From positions 1,911,001-1,975,000 of the forward strand of contig NZ_CP139478.1 of assembly GCF_034259105.1 (NCBI RefSeq): a stretch of DNA of 64,000 nucleotides, written 5' to 3'. Positions 7,025-59,972 of this stretch are shown one piece after another. Within the stretch, counting starts at the first letter, position 1. Each line of letters opens with the position of its first letter. Below the pieces are notes generated by a model, which did no database searches, was not told the DNA's origin, and saw only the letters and a program-made list of their open reading frames with translations. The position numbers were made by a program, and so were the translations under genes. Source of the stretch: Limosilactobacillus reuteri (GTDB lineage Bacteria; Bacillota; Bacilli; Lactobacillales; Lactobacillaceae).

Positions 7025-8185
7025 TTATTTTCGGTAAAAACGACGAAGGGCAAAAGATAAGCCGATCGCTAAAAGTCCGTACACTGCACCTACATAGCCA
7101 AGCATCGTTAAATTAGCAAAGTTAACAGTAGTCGAAGCCGTGAAAGATCCAAGTGAAATTCCAACATTAGCGAAAATCGAAATTAACGATGTTGCTAAAG
7201 CTAATGACTGCGGATATTCTTTTTCCGCTACACTAATAAATACCAGTTGAATAGTTGTTCCATATATAATTACAACGACACAAAGAGCTGCTAGAACAAG
7301 CATTCCCGTGATCTTATTTCCTAATGCAATCCCAAGAATAAGACTTAAGATTGTCATGAGAATAAAGACAAATGGTAATTTGTGAACCCCATTATGACTC
7401 GCAACGATTCCAGCAATTTCATTACCAATAATACTCATTACCCCTAAAAGAAGCAGCAACCAATTTAAACTAGTTAAGCTAAAGCCCATCACAGTAGTAA
7501 TTAGCGGCCGGACATAAGTATAGAAAGTATACTGGAGACTTAAGACAGCCACCGTGATTCCAATCCCTAATAAAACACGGTGATCTTTTAATAGCGCTAA
7601 CTGTTCTAAAATGCTCCCTTTAACTTGAGGTGTATCACGAGGAGTAAGCCAGGCTAACAATGCAAATACAATTAATGTTAATCCCGAAATGATCCAAAAA
7701 CTATCGTGCCAGGAAAGTAACGTTGCGATGGTTGTACCAAGAGGAACCCCAATGACCGACGCAATACTAAAACCTGCGCCGACCCACGCTAGAACCATTG
7801 GCCGCTTGTCCATTGGTGTAATTATACTAACTAGCAAGTTAATTAATGAAATAATGGTTCCAGCAACAGCGGCAGTAATAATTCGCGCAAATAGGAGCCA
7901 GCCAAGTGTTGGTGCCATCGCAGTTAAAGTATTACCAATAAAAAAGACGGTCATTAATAGCATAAGAAGCTTATATCGATTCTAATTGCTAGTTAAGGTA
8001 GTAATAATTGGCGTACTAATCGCATAGACTCCTGCAAAAGCTGTCACCAAAAAACCAACTGTGAAAAGCGGAACATGATAACTTCGTGCAATATCTGATA
8101 AAACGCCCACAACCATAAACTCATTACATCCCAGCATAAATGCAACAAGAATAAAAGTGAACGATCGTAATTTGGCGTGCTTCAC
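7025..8185 (-). pseudogene. MFS efflux transporter with in-frame stop
   Basis: A major-facilitator protein of the AraJ/YdhP drug or sugar efflux group, ~386 residues with 12 predicted spans. GTG 8185 (VKHAKLRSF) is the likely start because AAAGGAGG lies six bases before it. A TAG at 7982-7984 interrupts span 2 (...TLTSN-stop-NRYKLL); both sides are in the same frame and read as one transporter. A CAG to TAG change would explain it. The later part (7025-7963) has internal starts but would lack the first two spans. Probably non-functional. Confidence 0.85.
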
Positions 8186-8286
8186 AATAAACCTCCTTTT
8201 TAAAACAAAAAATTTTCCGGAAAAAGTCAATCCAGAAAATTATAAACGTTTAACAATTAATTTCCAATAGTTTTGAACTATTTAGC

Positions 8287-24904: not shown

Positions 24905-25498
24905 TTATTTAACATTATCGTATTGAGCAAGATTAAACTTCATAATCGCATAGATCAGCTTGCTGGCATAATCTGGATCGGTTGCGTAACCATTCCGCTG
25001 TAATTCGTAAGCTGCCTGTTAATAAGTTTTCGCTGTTTGTACCCCATGGAAACGTGCATGATTATCAGCAGTTCCATTTACAATGAGCAATGTGTGCGCA
25101 TTAATTGAATCAGCCCAGCTATTGTAAACCGTAAAGTATTGTTTTACTTGAACATTTTTACCACGAATATTTTCGGTAGTATACATTTGAACCTTTTCGT
25201 CGTCACTATTAGCCTTAATTCCAAATAAGTTATTGTATTTATTTGCTAACCGGCTCCGACCCCAGTTAGATTCAAGTCCTGCTTGTGCAATCGTAATGCT
25301 AGCCGGGATATGATATTTCTTCTGTTCACGTTGAGCAGCTGGTGCAATCTGACGAACAAATTCATTGACGGTTATATCTGGTGGGTGAGTCTCACGTTGA
25401 ATTTGAGGAGATTCGTGGATAATAATCGCCACAATCCCAAATAAAATAATCAAAAACGCAAGCACACTTCCACAAATGATTTTTGTTCCTTTTTTCAT
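24905..25498 (-). pseudogene. Glucosaminidase-domain peptidoglycan hydrolase with in-frame stop
   Basis: The minus strand encodes a secreted N-acetylglucosaminidase (LytF/FlgJ-like, GH73). An N-terminal anchor segment (residues ~5-28) is followed by the domain with AQAGLESNWGRSRLA (catalytic Glu), YNNLFGIKA and FTVYNSWADSI. A TAA at 25019-25021 interrupts it near the end; the same frame continues QAAYELQRNGYATDPDYASKL to a second stop at 24905. A CAA to TAA change explains it. The truncated product keeps the catalytic Glu but loses the last ~37 residues, so residual activity is possible though unlikely. Confidence 0.85.
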
Positions 25499-34845: not shown

Positions 34846-36168
34846 ATGGACGAGCTATTTGAACATTCTTCAATCAAGCGAGCATACTTTACGCTGGCTT
34901 TACCTGTTGTGTTAAGCATGGCTGTAACCTTGATTTATAACATGGTTGATACTTTTTTCGTGGCTAAAACCGGAAACCCCAATTTAGTTGCCGGCGTTTC
35001 CCAGGGAGCACCGATTTTTACGTTAATGATTGCTCTTGGGGATATCTTTGGTCTTGGCGGAAGCTCAGTTATTTCTCGCTTATTTGGTGAGCACCGTGAT
35101 AAATTAGCACGTTTTGTCAGTGGCTATTGCTTCTATGCACCGATTATTTGTGGAATCATCGTAACTGCAATAATGATTATCTTTCAAACACCAATTTTAC
35201 ATTTATTGGGTGCTTCTCCTGCCACTTGGAAATATGCACGTGAATATTACTTGGTGATCGCTTGGGGTGCGGTTTTCATCATTTTTGGCCTTTCACCAAC
35301 TAATATTTTACGAACAGAAGGGCTGGCCATTCAGTCGATGATCGCTAGTATGGTAGGGACTGGAATTAATATTGTCTTAAATCCGATCTTTATTTTCACG
35401 TGTGGGCTCGGCGCTGCTGGTTCCGCACTAGCCACTGTAACAAGTGCTGTTATTGGCGATATTTTAATGATTTATTATTTGGAAACAAAGAGTAAAAAGC
35501 TGACGACTTCAATTCATGAAACAAAAATCGGCTGGAAACTCCAATTTGAAATCTACGCTATCGGAATCCCGGCCTCGGTTACTAACATTATGGCAACGTT
35601 TGCGGTTGCGTTAACTAATCGTTACTTGATTGTTCATGGCGCGGATAGTGTAGCTGCCATGGGGATTGCGATGAAAGCAAATATGATCATTAATATGGTA
35701 ATGGTTGGTTTTGCATTTGGCGCGCAACCCTTGATCGGATATGTATATGGCGCTAAAGACGAGCAGCGATTTAACAAAGTTGTCAAATTTGATATTCAAG
35801 TCGTTGCTAGTCTTGCCTTAATTCTCACTATTATTCTTTTCATTTTTGCTCCCCAGGTTATTCGTATTTTCATGAATGATTCCCAAATAGTAAAAGAAGG
35901 GGCCTTGATGCTACGTTGGCTATCAATTTCGACAACTCTTGCTGGTATCATTCTTGTTTTTACAACCATGTTCCAATCAATGTGAAAAGCAACTCCTGCA
36001 TTTTGGCTCTCATTCTGTCGTCAGGGATTGATTTTCGGAGTAGTGATTAGTGTTTCCGCAAAATTATTTGGTTATACTGGAATTATTGCTGCTCAAGCTA
36101 TTTCTGATTGCTTAACCTTTGTTCTGGCGCTCATTTTCTTCTATTGTTATCGTCCCCATTTTAAATAA
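34846..36168 (+). pseudogene. MATE-family efflux transporter with in-frame stop
   Basis: A multidrug/toxin extrusion carrier of 440 codons (~12 spans) beginning MDELFEHSSIKRAYFTLALPVVLSM. TGA at 35983-35985 follows FQSM, where relatives continue FQSxWKA, so TGG to TGA is likely. The same frame continues KATPAFWLSFCRQG to TAA 36166. The truncated 379-residue form lacks the last two spans. AAAGGAG lies before ATG 34846. Probably inactive. Confidence 0.87.
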
Positions 36169-52995: not shown

Positions 52996-54207
52996 TTAAT
53001 GCAGGAGACGTTGCCAAAAGTTTCCACGGCGAACATCATTAGCACTATATAGAGAGTAAGTTAATGGTTCCCCATTAAGCGTTTCTAACTGATCACTCGT
53101 TATCCTTAAACTGCCGACACGTTCACCTTTCCAAATAGGTGCTTCTAATTTTTTCTTTTTATATTGTGTTCCAATTGTATAGTCCGTTTTTGTATCATAC
53201 GGACTCCAAATAGTTACTTGTTGTGGCGTGAGTTTCATTGTTTTTTCAACACCATTAGCTACTTTACGTGTTGTTACTGATGATGGAACTTTTATTTTTT
53301 GTAAATGGTCCTCTGTTTTAAGGATCTTATATAAATTCTGAGTAGCCTTAAATCGGTTGTCTTTATTGCTCCCTTTTGAATGTAAGATAACAGTAATGAT
53401 ACGGTGTCCCTGATACTTACCTGTACTTGCAAAACAAGCTCCCGCACTGTCAGAAGTCCCCGTCTTCAAGCCATCAATCGTTACCCCTTTTACAGCGTAC
53501 TGTTCTCCCGGTAACATCTTATTAAGATTTTTTTCAGTCTTAACTTGATCTTTCGCTATTTGAAATTTCACTTCTTTTTGTGCTGTAATTTGTAAAAGTT
53601 CTGGATAATGCTTTACAAAGTATTGCGATAAAATGGCAACATCCCGTGCACTCATCGTATTAGCAGCATTGTTAGGAAGATCAGCTAACTTAAAACTTTT
53701 CATATCTCCATTGTCTAATCCGACTGAATTAACAATATTTGTCTTAGTCATTCCAATTTTTTTGGCTTTTTGCATCATTTTAAGATTAAATTCATCGGTT
53801 CCATCCCCGGTAGCAGTTGCAAGTGCGACGGTTGCTCCATCAGCTGACTTTACAAGGGCTGCATTGATTAATGTCCGAACTGAATAAGATTGACCAGATT
53901 TTAGTCCGATTGAAGAATAAGCAGCATCATTAGAAATAGCCGCAATTTCAGGAGTTATTTTCACTTGAGTATCCCATGAAAGTTGCTTCTGTTGGATTTC
54001 ATCTTCAATTACCAAAATAGTTAATAATTTTGTAATTGAAGCCACTGGAAGAGCCTTATCTACATTTTGCTTATAGATAATTTACCCTGTTGAAGCATCA
54101 GCCATGATCGCTGCAGAAGCATCAATTCGATTATTTGCTAATACGGATTGACTTCCCACCATTAGCATCATGAATAGAGATAAAATAAAAACTGTCAATT
54201 TTTTCAT
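52996..54207 (-). pseudogene. D-alanyl-D-alanine carboxypeptidase (DacA/PBP5 type) with early stop
   Basis: A secreted penicillin-binding carboxypeptidase that trims pentapeptides. The signal peptide begins at ATG 54207 behind GGAG. Then MADASTG is followed by TAA (54082-54084) and, in the same frame, IIYKQNVDKALPVASITKLL. The catalytic SITK, the KSAD(G) motif and LKTGTSDSAG are all after the stop. CAA to TAA is the likely change. A GTG at 54045 could restart translation but the product would lack a signal peptide, so it would stay in the cytoplasm. Confidence 0.88.
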
Positions 54208-54279
54208 AAAATCTATTCTCCTATTTTCTCCAAGTACGGTAAGATAAACTTAATAATAAATAATAAAGGAATTCATTAT

Positions 54280-55334
54280 GGCAGATTGCAAGAAATAACT
54301 TGAACAAAGTTAGTGACGCAGATTACGCAAAAAGATCTCAATTGGTGTGCGCCAGTTTAAACATTTGAGTGGCCTGGAGTTCAAATACCAGTTAATTTGA
54401 ATTAACTCATCATCAGTGATTTCCTCAATCGGTTGACCTTTGGGGATAAAGCGTCGTAGTACTCGGTTGCGATTCTCATTACTGCCCCGTTCATGTGGAG
54501 AATAAGCATGCGCAAAGTAGAGGGGAATCCTGGCCTGCTCTTCAATTAGCTTGTAGTTAGCGAATTCTTTCCCATGGTCAACAGTAAGGGTCTTGAGATT
54601 ATCTTCTAACTGGTTAGCTAATTCTAAAATGGCCTTGGTCATTGAGGTACTATCTCGTCCCTGAAGCCGTTTAACGATGGTAAGACGACTCTTACGCTCG
54701 ACAAACGTAGCTATTGCTTGACCTTTACGCTTTCCAGATAAAACTGTATCTGCTTCAAAGTGACCTGAGGTATGACGGTCAATAACTTCAGCGGGACGAT
54801 CTTCAATGGAACGTCCATGGCTAAAAGTCCCACGGGTTTCTATGGCTCGTCGGCGGCGAATTCCATGGTCAGGTAAATCAGCCACGCCAATATCCAATAC
54901 TCCTTGATCAATCCAGTTGTAGATGGTCTTGTAGGCGATTCTAACTACATGAGCCACTTGTTCAATCGACCATTTTTGGATCTTAATCTTTTCTTCAATT
55001 AATCGCTTGAGGTTAGTCGTTAAGATGGTTTTACGCCCACGATGACTAAGTTTAGCTTCATGATCAGCTTGAGCTTTAACTGCGTGATATTCACCAGTCA
55101 AACGATGAACCTCATTAAAGATCGTGGTTTTACTGAAGCCAAGGTAATCAGCGATGTATTTAAGGGAGCGGTTTTCATAACGAAGAGTTTCGATGACAAC
55201 ACGGTCTTCAAATGATAAAATAGTGGTGCCCATAAAGGTCCTTCTTTCTAATGGAATGTTGTGGTGACACCATTAAAGACCTTTATGGGTTTTTATGTCC
55301 ACTAATATGTTCAACTTAAATTTTACAATCTACC
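54280..55334. mobile_element. IS30-family insertion sequence, type A relative
   Basis: A 1055-bp relative of the 15.4 and 44.4 kb copies with diverged protein but matching ends (left GGCAGATTG; right tip GGTAGATTG, one mismatch). It is flanked by a 4-bp repeat TTAT (54276-54279 and 55335-55338). It lies between the ribosome site AAAGGA (54266-54271) and the ATG (55337) of the next gene. Confidence 0.9.
54310..55233 (-). CDS. IS30-family transposase (type A relative)
   Basis: A 307-residue DDE transposase that is similar to but clearly diverged from the other type A proteins (MGTTILSFEDRVVIETLRYEN at the start). The DDE residues lie in FEADTVLSGK, LTVDHGKEF and RGSNENRNR. ATG 55233 follows AGAAGG. 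Intact. Confidence 0.92.
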   Translation of the reverse strand: MGTTILSFEDRVVIETLRYENRSLKYIADYLGFSKTTIFNEVHRLTGEYHAVKAQADHEAKLSHRGRKTILTTNLKRLIEEKIKIQKWSIEQVAHVVRIAYKTIYNWIDQGVLDIGVADLPDHGIRRRRAIETRGTFSHGRSIEDRPAEVIDRHTSGHFEADTVLSGKRKGQAIATFVERKSRLTIVKRLQGRDSTSMTKAILELANQLEDNLKTLTVDHGKEFANYKLIEEQARIPLYFAHAYSPHERGSNENRNRVLRRFIPKGQPIEEITDDELIQINWYLNSRPLKCLNWRTPIEIFLRNLRH

Positions 55335-55336
55335 TT

Positions 55337-55900
55337 ATGAATAAAGAACTTAAATCTCTGCTTTTCATCTCAACTGGCCTATTCCTTATTTTTGTTCTAA
55401 TTTTTAATCTTTATACATATAATGCTGCTAGATTTATTCCCCAAGCTAGCAAAACAAGTCAAATTCTTAACCAAAATCGACTTAGTGCCCCTAATATCTA
55501 CCGTTCCTCTGAAAATTGGGCATACCCTAAGATCGATAACGCTCCTATTGAATTGGTCGCCATCAAACAAGCAAAAAGAATTCTAGTTATTAACACAAAT
55601 AAGCGACAAGTTATTTACATCATCCACGCACAAATTAACTTACCAGCACAAAAAAATTCTTTTCGCTTACTTCATGCTCGGGGGCAGCAAATTTATCACA
55701 TTAATGGTTCCCAGCAAGCCATCGCTAAGAACTGGTTAGGAGTTAATGATGGGAACTACATTGAAACCCCCGTTACAGATATGAATAATCATCAGGTCCC
55801 ACGCAATCTACGAAAAGCACCCAAAATTGAAAACACTATCCAGGTGTCAACCCCCGATGCTAAATGGCTTCAAACTTTTTGCCTGAAAATACACCCTTAA
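55337..55900 (+). CDS. Membrane-anchored L,D-transpeptidase-like protein lacking the catalytic residues
   Basis: A 187-residue protein with an N-terminal anchor (residues ~7-27) and a domain that can be aligned with the intact L,D-transpeptidase at 56119-56775: SSENWAYPKI matches SSETVPYPDL, GNYIETPV matches GEYLFHSV, and IENTIQVSTPDAKW matches SHGCIRLSVPDAQW. In this alignment the catalytic His becomes Thr144, His of SHGC becomes Glu165, Cys becomes Thr167 and Arg becomes Gln169, so it cannot act as a transpeptidase. An IS30 element separates ATG 55337 from its original ribosome site; an in-frame ATG at 55295 inside the IS end could be used instead. It is followed by a 66-codon membrane gene. 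Confidence 0.7.
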   Translation: MNKELKSLLFISTGLFLIFVLIFNLYTYNAARFIPQASKTSQILNQNRLSAPNIYRSSENWAYPKIDNAPIELVAIKQAKRILVINTNKRQVIYIIHAQINLPAQKNSFRLLHARGQQIYHINGSQQAIAKNWLGVNDGNYIETPVTDMNNHQVPRNLRKAPKIENTIQVSTPDAKWLQTFCLKIHP

Positions 55901-55921
55901 TAGTTAAGGAGGACTATTAAT

Positions 55922-56122
55922 ATGATTTCACGCCTAAAATATGGACGGTTTTTTAATCGCTTACTTGGAAGTAATCTTATTTTGCTAATTATAATTAGCT
56001 TTTATAATCTTCTTACATACTTCATCCCATTAAGCCAAATTTCAATCACTCAAATAATTTTCTTCTTTCTAATAATTGATCTACTCTTGTCTATCTTTAA
56101 GATTTTAGCGCTACACAATTAG
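55922..56122 (+). CDS. Small membrane protein (66 residues)
   Basis: A 66-residue protein with two hydrophobic segments (SNLILLIIISFYNLLTYFI and IIFFFLIIDLLLSIFKILAL) and a basic N-terminus. A strong ribosome site (AAGGAGG) lies eight bases before ATG, 21 bases after the stop of the transpeptidase-like gene. Its stop overlaps the convergent transpeptidase gene by four bases. It is probably a partner of the upstream protein; unknown family. Confidence 0.65.
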   Translation: MISRLKYGRFFNRLLGSNLILLIIISFYNLLTYFIPLSQISITQIIFFFLIIDLLLSIFKILALHN

Positions 56123-56775
56123 CCGACAATCTCAATCTTAGTACCGACTGGCAAATTCTTTTCCATCCATTGTGCGTCCGGCACTGAAAGCCGAATACAC
56201 CCGTGAGAGCCCTGTGTTTTTCCAAGTTTAGCAGCTTCTTGTTCATTATATTTTCCATCTGCTTTAGTCGGAACACTATGAAACAAGTATTCTCCATGAT
56301 TCTTCCAAGAAACGTAGTAATTAGCTCCTTCTTTCAACGATTGATTAAAAAAGCTATCTCCTCGCTCTTGTTGAGCATAAAATGTTCCTGTCGGGGTCAC
56401 GCTTTTCAGCTTACCAGTTTTTGGATCCTTTTTATAAATTCCACCTGTGCTATACATTGTATAAATGACCTTTGAACCATCATACAAATATGTCCGATTA
56501 TTTTTTAAGTCAACTTTAATCCAAAGGTCCTTCACTTTATTCAAATCTGGATACGGAACTGTTTCCGAGGACTTATGCCAATCAATTGGGGTTCTCATAT
56601 GACTTTCACTATTATCGATTTCCTTTTCTTGTGTTGGCTTTTCTTTTACTTGCGATTCAACTACTGCTTTTTGGGGATGTGCATTTGAAGCAGCATGTAA
56701 TTCTGGACCAATTGCAATTATTGCTACTAATAAGCAAAATATTCCATAAATCCAATGCTTTACTCGTAAGTTCAA
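56119..56775 (-). CDS. L,D-transpeptidase (YkuD domain)
   Basis: A 218-residue protein with an N-terminal signal anchor (residues ~8-24), a Lys/Glu-rich linker (~30-60) and a YkuD domain (~85-218). Catalytic residues are intact: His166 in GEYLFHSV, and His191-Gly-Cys193 with Arg195 in GSHGCIRLS. It may make 3-3 cross-links or attach proteins or polymers to peptidoglycan. TTG 56775 is the start, with AGGAG eight bases upstream. It is convergent with the 66-residue gene, overlapping by four bases. Confidence 0.9.
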   Translation of the reverse strand: MNLRVKHWIYGIFCLLVAIIAIGPELHAASNAHPQKAVVESQVKEKPTQEKEIDNSESHMRTPIDWHKSSETVPYPDLNKVKDLWIKVDLKNNRTYLYDGSKVIYTMYSTGGIYKKDPKTGKLKSVTPTGTFYAQQERGDSFFNQSLKEGANYYVSWKNHGEYLFHSVPTKADGKYNEQEAAKLGKTQGSHGCIRLSVPDAQWMEKNLPVGTKIEIVG

Positions 56776-56965: not shown

Positions 56966-57121
56966 ATGACATCATTTTTTTCATTCATATCAAATATTTG
57001 GTCTTATACCATCAGTCATAAATGGTCAAAGGATATTTTACGAGCTAACATCCTTTTTATTCTTTTAGTTATTATTTATGATCTTTTTCACTTTTCATTA
57101 AAAAGGTGGATTATAGAATGA
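56966..57121 (+). CDS. Tiny membrane protein (51 residues)
   Basis: A 51-codon ORF with GTGAGGA before ATG 56966. It has a polar, aromatic head (MTSFFSFISNIWSYTISHKW), one span (ANILFILLVIIYDLFHF) and a basic tail (SLKRWIIE). An IS30 element begins at the last base of its stop codon, so the original C-terminus may differ by a few residues. Unknown family. Confidence 0.5.
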   Translation: MTSFFSFISNIWSYTISHKWSKDILRANILFILLVIIYDLFHFSLKRWIIE

Positions 57122-58367
57122 AGTTAGCCACCCAGTTGGTGGTAAATAAAAAACGCCATTCGGCGTGACATCAGGTATCATATTAAGTGAACCAAACCTA
57201 TATGAAAGGATGTCCGTCAAATGACGCACTTAAATGATACCATGTCTACTAGTTTATTGACTACTCATAAAAAGAATGCTCATCTTACTAAAGAAGAACG
57301 TGTGATGATTGCGACTTTAAAGTCGCAAGGACTTTCCAATCGCGCAATTGGTCGCCAATTAGGAGTTAATCATCAAACAATTAATAACGAGCTCAACCGT
57401 GGTACGGTCCGCCAACTTCGTCGTCAAAAATCTAATGGTAAGATTTACGAATATTCTTACTACATCTATAGTTATGAAGCTGGTCAGGCCACATATCTTG
57501 AACATCACCGCCATTCTGGTCGTCGTCGCTTATATTATTCTTCAAAGCAATTTTTACGATTAGCTGATCAGCTAATGCTTGGTGAGTTTGACGACCACCA
57601 TTACTCCCCACAAGCGGTTATTTATAAGGCTCGAGATTTAATGAATGATGGCACCCTGATCCCAAAGTCGGTTGTAACTTTATATCAATGGATTAATGAG
57701 GGTGTGCTTCGTACGTCCAATTTAGACCTCTTTGAAAAACCTAAACGTAAGCATCATCGAACTCATCCGCAAGCTAAAAGGTGCTTAGGGCCTAATATTG
57801 CTCAACGACCTCAAACTGCGGACCAACGGTCCGAAATTGGCCATTGGGAACTAGATACAGTTCAGGGACAGAAAAACGGTAATGACAGTGTTGTACTAGT
57901 AATGACTGATCGCCTTTCACGAGTTAATATCACAAGTAAAATTGCTGGTAAAACTGCGCATGCAGTAAATCAGTTCTTTATAAATTTACGCCAGAAAATG
58001 GGCACAGATGCTTACTATCGCATCTTTAAGACAATAACCTCTGACAACGGTTCAGAATTTAGTGAGTTAACACAAGTTCACGATCATGTTTTCTATGCTG
58101 ATCCGTATTCCCCTTGGGAACGTGGATCCAATGAGATCAATAACCGGTTTCTCCGCAAGGAGATTACCAAAGGTGAAGCTATAAATAACTATAGTAGTGC
58201 TCAGATCATAGCGACTAATGATTGGATGAATCACTATCCACGAGCTATGTTTAATGGACATTCGTCAATGGATATCTATCGTAAGGCCTTCTACCAAGAG
58301 ATATCACAGCTCCATCAACCAATAATCAATTGGTCAGTATTATTTATTTGAGTCCAGTGGCTAACTT
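57121..58367. mobile_element. IS30-family insertion sequence, type C
   Basis: A ~1247-bp element with perfect 11-bp tips AAGTTAGCCAC (57121-57131) and GTGGCTAACTT (58357-58367). The left end also holds the short palindromes CCACCCAGTTGGTGG and ACGCCATTCGGCGT. No clear target repeat is seen. It lies between tiny membrane-protein ORFs. Confidence 0.82.
57221..58351 (+). CDS. IS30-family transposase (type C)
   Basis: A 376-residue transposase, longer than the type A and B proteins. The HTH region KEERVMIATLKSQGLSNRAI is followed by GRQLGVNHQTINNEL. The DDE residues lie in GHWELDTVQG, TITSDNGSEF and ERGSNEINNRF. AAAGGATG lies upstream of ATG 57221; MSTSLL (57242) is an alternative start. Intact. 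Confidence 0.92.
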   Translation: MTHLNDTMSTSLLTTHKKNAHLTKEERVMIATLKSQGLSNRAIGRQLGVNHQTINNELNRGTVRQLRRQKSNGKIYEYSYYIYSYEAGQATYLEHHRHSGRRRLYYSSKQFLRLADQLMLGEFDDHHYSPQAVIYKARDLMNDGTLIPKSVVTLYQWINEGVLRTSNLDLFEKPKRKHHRTHPQAKRCLGPNIAQRPQTADQRSEIGHWELDTVQGQKNGNDSVVLVMTDRLSRVNITSKIAGKTAHAVNQFFINLRQKMGTDAYYRIFKTITSDNGSEFSELTQVHDHVFYADPYSPWERGSNEINNRFLRKEITKGEAINNYSSAQIIATNDWMNHYPRAMFNGHSSMDIYRKAFYQEISQLHQPIINWSVLFI

Positions 58368-58371
58368 ATTC

Positions 58372-58500
58372 TTGAAATTTAGGTTTTCATTAAAAATAAT
58401 TAGTTGGCGGATCTTTTTCAAAGTATTTCTGCTGTTAAATATTTGTTTGTTTTTTAAGTTTCTTTTAGATGGCATTGATCGCTATTTAAGAACACGGTAA
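58372..58500 (+). CDS. Small hydrophobic ORF beside the IS30 end
   Basis: A 42-codon frame from TTG 58372, starting FRFSLKIISWRIFFKVFLLL and ending DGIDRYLRTR, with one span and basic flanks like the small proteins at 55.9 and 57.0 kb. It has no ribosome site of its own since the IS30 end is directly upstream, so it is probably a fragment or a gene cut off from its start. The rest up to 58583 shows an ACACGG/CCGTGC inverted repeat and no gene. Confidence 0.35.
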   Translation: MKFRFSLKIISWRIFFKVFLLLNICLFFKFLLDGIDRYLRTR

Positions 58501-58583: not shown

Positions 58584-59972
58584 ATGCATTCATATATTAA
58601 ATACTGGATAGCAGGAATAGGAGCATTATTAATTATAATGATTGCGGGGATGACTGTTCACCAGAAAAATCATTTCAATAAAAACGTAACCATCAATAAT
58701 GTTGCCGTTGGGGGATTAACAGCCAAGTAAGCTTTTGAGAAGGTAAAGGGGACCTCAGGAGTAACCAAGGTATACGTTGACAATAAGCTAGTTTACCAAA
58801 CTAAATCAATGAAGGCTAACTTTAGTAATAATGATGAACAAAAATTTAATCAAGCACTGAAAAAGCAGTTTACATTTTTCCCATCTCATAAAGCAACAAA
58901 CTTATCAATAAAGCCAGATAATTTTGATCAAGATTCGCTTAATATTGCTAAAAACAAATTAACTAACAAAGTACAGCAACTTAACACAGGTCGTAAAGCT
59001 CCCGTTGATGCTTACGCGGTCTACCAAAATGAGAAAGTTTCGATAGTTCCTGCAGTTAAGGGTAATAAATATGATTTACAAAATGCTGTTAATCAACTAA
59101 ATAATCAAGCAGGAAGTACTAAAATTAATATTACTTTACATAAGGAACAGCCAATTGCGGCAAATAGCAAAACCGTTAAGAACGAGGAAAAACAGTTAAA
59201 TAAGTTAAAAGGGAAGAAAGTTACTTACCTTGTTCAAAATGAAAAGTATAGTCTCACTACCAATCAAATTATTACCCGGGCAACTTATCAAAATGGCAAG
59301 TATCATTTCGACACTACGGCCTTAAATAAACAAGTAAAGAAAATCAATGAAAAACATGCAACTCTTGATAAACCATTTAAATTTAAAACTCATTCTGGAG
59401 CAGAAATTACCACTACAGCTAATGGTTCTTCCTATGGTTAAAAAATTAGCGAGAAAAAAGCTGGCAATTCATTAACTAAAGCAATTATCGATGGTCGCCA
59501 AGAAGTTGATGGGGAGCACGATATTGAAGGAAAAGGCTATGACACTGCTGGACTCGGCTACAATGTTACATCCAATAATGGTATCGGCGACACTTATGCT
59601 GAGGTTTCATTAGCTGACCAACGAGCTTATTTCTACAAAGATGGTAAATGTGTCCTTGAAACAGATATCGTTAGTGGAACTAATAATGAAGGCAACAAAA
59701 CGCCAAAGGGAGTCTGGTATATCATGTACCAACAAAGTCCTTCTGTTCTCCGTGGGCAAAATGACGATTGATCAAGTTATGCAAGTAAAGTTAATTATTG
59801 GTCACCGTTTACTTTAACAGGATGTGGCTTCCACGATGCAAGTTGGCGTCACAATTGGTCCAAGACTGCTTACCTAAACGATGGTTCGCACGGTTGTATT
59901 AATATGCAACCAAGCGTGGCTGGTCAAGCCTTCCATGATTTAAAGCAAAATGAACCTGTTATTATTTATTAA
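58584..59972 (+). pseudogene. L,D-transpeptidase with peptidoglycan-binding repeats, three in-frame stops
   Basis: 463 codons in one frame. Order: signal anchor (residues ~8-25), the start of a PG_binding_4-type region (VTINNVAVGGLTA), a long Lys/Asn-rich region, a second such region, and a C-terminal YkuD domain with DGSHGCINMQP (catalytic Cys present). Stops lie at TAA 58728, TAA 59439 and TGA 59769; the last replaces the Trp expected in NDDWSSY. The middle part (58809-59441) is open but could not make an active enzyme. Clear decay of a second L,D-transpeptidase. Confidence 0.88.

Follow-up and report, generated by a model that had tools for sequence, protein, structure and literature searches.

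A catalytically dead L,D-transpeptidase and its small membrane partner in the genus Limosilactobacillus

Among genomes of the genus Limosilactobacillus, a family of proteins homologous to the YkuD-type L,D-transpeptidases (LDTs) displays the pattern of a pseudoenzyme, in that the catalytic residues have been lost while the fold is kept under selection. The gene for this protein, here the dead LDT, is accompanied by that of a small predicted membrane protein, smp1. With a likelihood a little short of even, the two are read here as a pair of genes encoding a non-catalytic membrane unit within the cell-wall module of Limosilactobacillus, one that would tune L,D-transpeptidation. The analysis began from the window, i.e. 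the whole stretch of 64,000 nucleotides of Limosilactobacillus reuteri DNA, and was extended to other genomes of the genus and beyond.

The locus in the window

The features of the locus, in window coordinates, are as follows.

52996-54207, minus strand: D-Ala-D-Ala carboxypeptidase gene, divergent from the dead LDT gene, with a TAG at codon 42
54281-55334, minus strand: IS30-like insertion element of 1,054 bp, with a transposase ORF at 54310-55233
55337-55900, plus strand: dead YkuD-fold protein (dead LDT), 187 aa, with an N-terminal membrane helix, a linker and a YkuD domain without catalytic Cys and His
55922-56122, plus strand: smp1, a predicted two-helix membrane protein of 66 aa that partners the dead LDT, with an intact frame in the window
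56119-56775, minus strand: short active YkuD L,D-transpeptidase, 218 aa, with a TTG start and the SHGCIR motif, convergent, frame intact
56966-58497, plus strand: smp2, a second small membrane protein, in pieces (56966-57103 and 58378-58497) separated by an IS30-like element
58584-59972, plus strand: large L,D-transpeptidase gene with three in-frame stops

An earlier, sequence-only reading had recognized the ORFs for the dead protein, the 66-residue protein and the YkuD enzyme, and both their positions and the tail-to-tail layout were confirmed. Among these three core proteins, only the 218-aa active LDT was matched by Pfam (YkuD, 67.9 bits against a cut-off of 23.4), and the two PF03734 matches in the strain's own genome are this short active LDT and the broken large LDT.

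Homology and fold of the dead LDT

Direct BLASTP comparison of the dead and active window proteins gave a short, weak match (E 4e-4), and an alignment of the pair by eye, on which the likeness had first been proposed, could by itself have been due to chance; the likeness stands as homology by profile. In the HMM-HMM comparison that had been suggested, the dead-family profile strongly matched 20 active LDTs (hhalign probability 99.6, E 3.8e-24, 143 columns), and the same profile found 18 SHGC-bearing LDTs (L113-L130, i.e. 17 of other genera and one of Limosilactobacillus) at E values from 7.2e-23 to 1.2e-19. Because the family profile matches active LDTs in this way, the doubt over a chance resemblance is removed. 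The dead protein is modelled with a YkuD fold behind one predicted membrane helix, with modest Foldseek TM-scores of 0.38-0.48 (by query length), and a fold unrelated to YkuD did not emerge from the predicted model. Profile and fold together rule out chance as the source of the resemblance, and sequence and model agree with the pseudoenzyme of YkuD fold that had been proposed.

The positions that the dead family has in common with LDTs are SSE..YP, Y, G and S..DA.W. Most residues that never vary in the dead YkuD domain are also conserved among active LDTs and therefore may be structural. Neither the dead protein nor smp1 reached the cut-off of any Pfam or NCBIfam family, and the 34 dead members between them matched 12 families at E<=1, PF03734 not being among these. 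Searched against PDB sequences, the dead profile gave seven hits, all to pore-forming haemolysins (best E 0.59), which were taken as chance.

Loss of the catalytic residues

In a single alignment of 34 dead sequences with 20 active LDTs, the catalytic Cys and both catalytic His are kept in all 20 active enzymes. Among the dead sequences, the Cys position is occupied by Thr in 32, Ser in one and Ala in one (Cys in 0/34), His is found at the HGC-His position in 0/34, and a two-residue gap covers the LFH-His position in 34/34. Three carriers left out of this alignment (L051, L069 and L072) are likewise without SHGC. The alignment sets SHGCIR of the active LDT opposite IENTIQ of the dead protein, just as had been read by eye; the companion claim, that the His of LFHS is replaced by Thr, was not upheld, the gap lying there and the Thr at the Cys position. 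The best-conserved His elsewhere in the dead family, at alignment column 123, is present in 28/34 and is not invariant. On this alignment, the dead protein lacks the catalytic residues expected of an L,D-transpeptidase enzyme. Compared with YkuD-family LDTs (PF03734; e.g. Bacillus subtilis YkuD and LdtMt1), the dead family is alike in fold, by model and profile, and in the shared positions given above, but differs in having no catalytic Cys or His, in the gapped LFH-His, in its lack of Pfam recognition and in its constant small membrane partner.

Distribution and evolution of the dead form

The dead form occurs in 28 of 50 Limosilactobacillus genomes (E <= 2.2e-21; loci L045-L072), and the named carriers (12 loci) include L. 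balticus, L. agrestis, L. caviae, L. rudii, L. caccae, L. pontis, L. timonensis and one L. reuteri strain. The dead form is thus kept across the genus, and the survey rules out the prospect, raised earlier, that homologs retain Cys and His and that the residues were lost in this strain only. Among the 22 non-carriers, the first dead profile finds nothing in eight, and its best match in the other 14 keeps the Cys, within SHGC in 12 and within SPGC in two (G077 and G197). A variant motif, SPGCVC in place of SHGCIR/SHGCVR, in which the Cys is kept and the His is replaced by Pro, was seen at L172 (G077), L174 (G197) and L177 (G320); it is unlinked to the dead-LDT pair, with no smp1-like neighbour evident in the stretches examined at these three loci. 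In a wider family search, the dead profile found a match in 253 of 397 genomes, and the 18 inspected among the matches lying outside the dead set all have SHGC; another genus may still harbour a dead form.

In a tree, 33 distinct dead rows are separated from 66 others with 100/100 support and a branch length of 2.19, with the caveats that long branches meet inside the dead group and that a spurious fragment (gen_L089_1) is among the non-dead rows; the dead family appears to have had one origin. For the dead gene, 14 of the 17 chosen pairs give a dN/dS of 0.08-0.28, two close pairs give 0.52 and 0.71, and one pair is undefined; for the active LDT gene, 13 of the 14 defined pairs give 0.03-0.18 and the remaining one 0.62. 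On these codon comparisons, the dead gene is clearly under constraint, smp1 less so. The frames of the dead gene are open in nearly all carriers, with a single in-frame stop in L069 and an unusual start in L072. Two L. reuteri-like clusters of dead LDTs, P0013 and P0014, are shortened by a changed frame and have 24 member sequences together, against 488 in the full-length cluster P0004. The frame change in P0013 and P0014 (the latter named L. reuteri) lies near an A-rich tract, nearly identical relatives being full length, and may reflect strain-level loss, phase variation or sequencing error.

The small membrane partner smp1

A recognizable smp1 follows the dead gene in 28/28 carriers, including L069, L070 and L071, where no active LDT lies beside the pair; its start codon is other than a plain ATG in L064, L066 and L072. 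An smp1 profile built from 20 sequences, with 8 of the 28 carriers outside it, detected exactly the same 28 of 50 genomes as the dead gene (E <= 1.4e-9), giving a Fisher p of 1.1e-14 for co-occurrence over the 50 genomes, uncorrected for kinship. No dead gene without smp1 was found in the 50 Limosilactobacillus genomes, and the 66-residue membrane protein, first noted as a companion in one strain, is a constant one in the genomes searched. Weaker matches to the smp1 profile, in G301 (1.5e-4), G177 (0.047) and G329 (0.13), lie at the smp2 position beside an active LDT, and the homology between smp1 and smp2 is weak (hhalign probability 48.7, E 1.8e-4).

A gap of 23-24 bases separates the carboxypeptidase gene from the active LDT gene at L092, L093, L095 and L096, where the dead gene and smp1 are both absent, and in G311 (L102) an smp2-like ORF lies between the same two genes. 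Because the active-LDT tree places these five pair-less loci within the carriers, joint loss of the dead gene and smp1 is favoured in these genomes, the alternative being an insertion of the pair elsewhere. The dN/dS of smp1 ranges from 0.05 to 1.22 (13 of 17 pairs defined) and exceeds 0.4 in most, which argues for weak constraint on the partner, the frame being short and dS noisy. The structure model of smp1 is weak (pLDDT 69.3, pTM 0.38), and Asn24 in its helix is invariant.

Genomic neighbourhood

In L. balticus, L. rudii, L. caccae, L. pontis and L. timonensis, the genes are ordered carboxypeptidase (minus), dead LDT (plus), smp1 (plus), active LDT (minus) and smp2 (plus), and a large LDT-like ORF comes next in 4/5 of these loci; both the carboxypeptidase gene and the large LDT gene, the third of its kind, are part of the locus. 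Pfam confirmed Peptidase_S11 in 3/3 carboxypeptidases tested, that of the L. balticus relative having both Peptidase_S11 and PBP5_C, and YkuD in 2/2 large LDTs tested, that of L. balticus L033 being a 461-aa protein with YkuD and PG_binding_4. In relatives, smp2 is 80-90 aa long; this small two-helix protein, which faintly resembles smp1, is encoded next to the active LDT and divergent from it even in genomes without the dead LDT.

An active LDT ORF is present within the examined stretch of 25/28 carriers. The pair is not beside the active LDT in G215, G301 and G306, being on a different contig in G215 and, in G301, separated by more than 700 kb from the best match to an active LDT. The constant unit is the dead LDT with smp1, not the dead LDT facing an active one. 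In G324 (L053), the active LDT behind smp1 shares the orientation of the dead LDT, unlike in most loci and perhaps through a local inversion, and in G130 (L072) it is on the same strand as the pair. Across 22 of the 28 carrier loci, distances between dead proteins correlate with those between active proteins (r 0.896, 0/2000 permutations as high), which is what vertical inheritance alone predicts.

Decay of the locus in this strain

The insertion element in front of the dead gene, which we take to be of the IS30 type, separates the ATG from a conserved AAAGG ribosome-binding site (54265-54269) and is flanked by TTATG repeats (54276-54280 and 55335-55339); in Pfam, its transposase is over the cut-off for HTH_38 and just under it for rve. 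Compared with L. balticus L033, the dead gene of the window has two extra T in a T run, and the frameshifted protein ends in LQTFCLKIHP, with seven altered residues from codon 181 on. The 187 residues first reported are thus the true length of the window ORF but a frameshifted one, close relatives having 193 aa and the C-terminus LQTLPENTPLIVKEDY.

Genes of the module are broken in 4/6 cases, against 7/48 of the other window genes matched in the relative G323 (Fisher p 0.012; 3/5 against 6/47, p 0.031, without the large LDT and an edge transposase), the 14 of 68 G323 ORFs without a match being left out of the comparison; the large LDT counterpart in G323 is likewise in pieces. These counts are suggestive only of a decay selective for the cell-wall module in this strain. 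Wider gene decay in the genome is seen at 7028-8230, 24908-25498 and 34846-36165, where the genes have one in-frame stop each relative to G323. Given the stops, IS30-like elements and frameshift in the module, and with other window genes broken too, the window shows in decay a unit that other genomes keep intact, and the unit is probably non-working in this strain.

Proposed role of the dead LDT and smp1

A membrane-held dead LDT with a small partner beside wall enzymes would most simply be a non-catalytic regulator or scaffold. Carboxypeptidases produce the tetrapeptide stems that are the substrate of LDTs, and the carboxypeptidase of the locus would make this substrate. The YkuD domain of the dead LDT may still bind either an LDT ligand (the peptidoglycan stem peptide) or an LDT, smp1 would hold it in the membrane, with Asn24 as a candidate contact, and the pair would tune the place or strength of L,D-transpeptidation beside the carboxypeptidase, in a mode resembling that of degenerate LytM proteins that tune amidases. 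In Escherichia coli, carboxypeptidases have been reported to regulate an LDT via substrate availability (PMC12729407). Non-enzymatic roles of an LDT have been discussed from an engineered inactive mutant (PMC12548408). Pseudoenzyme control of wall enzymes is known from EnvC, NlpD and ActS, which likewise have a wall-enzyme fold without catalytic residues and act in a mode like that proposed here, but their fold is unrelated, their targets are E. coli amidases, and regulation has been shown for them and is only proposed for the dead LDT (PMC8360153). The further claim, that a stand-alone pseudo-LDT and its two-helix partner jointly control L,D-transpeptidation as a Gram-positive counterpart to the degenerate LytM activators, is more doubtful. 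The absence of the pair from 22/50 genomes of the genus counts against the favoured explanation, as do the weak constraint on smp1 and its weak model, the modest TM-scores, the possibly structural nature of most invariant residues and the three genomes where the pair is away from the active LDT.

As had been supposed of such a system, no description of a stand-alone dead LDT was found in the open-access literature searched, but a Cys-less YkuD domain is known as the second YkuD domain (QLGKIR) of Pseudomonas aeruginosa LdtPae1, where it is a presumed duplicate fused behind the active domain, whereas the dead LDT is a separate gene product with its own membrane helix and partner (PMC10434034). 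The authors of that work speculate that the Cys-less domain binds peptidoglycan (PMC10434034), and the dead LDT could similarly do no more than bind peptidoglycan from its membrane tether, regulating nothing, with smp1 serving its assembly or stability; such an anchor, rather unlikely overall, would fit the retained fold and structural residues but leaves the usual site beside LDT and carboxypeptidase genes unexplained. A role of the pair outside L,D-transpeptidation, with its location due to old synteny, is distinctly unlikely. The three genomes in which the pair and the active LDT are separated, and a presumably MerR-like regulator ORF adjoining the pair in L070, speak for such a role, but the domain itself has the LDT fold and an active LDT ORF accompanies nearly all carriers.

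More improbable still is a new chemistry, in which another residue of the YkuD fold, e.g. the Thr prevalent at the Cys position, serves as nucleophile, as is reported of a Legionella YafK/YkuD-superfamily protein that uses Ser rather than the canonical Cys for beta-lactam turnover (PMC13400389); the Ala and Ser of two members at that position, the lack of His at either former catalytic position and the variability of the best other His all stand against it. Proteins of the YafK/DpaA type and Lpg1514 are likewise YkuD-superfamily members with departed functions, but, as described, they keep the canonical Cys and are enzymatic, unlike the dead LDT (PMC13400389). That the dead gene is a functionless pseudogene, as the insertion and frameshift in the window, the frame-changed clusters and the L069 stop might imply, is barely credible given the constraint across species, the open frames in nearly all carriers and the great excess of full-length members in P0004.

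Significance

The control of L,D-transpeptidases is little understood, and a 2014 review of lactic acid bacteria states that 3-3 crosslinks were undescribed in them (PMC4155827). With the dead LDT and smp1 as a conserved, genetically simple pair in a tractable genus, LDT control becomes directly testable, and strict co-occurrence with the dead LDT gives smp1, unnamed in the libraries searched, its first functional context. The retention of a dead LDT together with a tiny membrane protein in many members of the genus suggests that this LDT has given up chemistry to regulate or scaffold the crosslinking of the wall.
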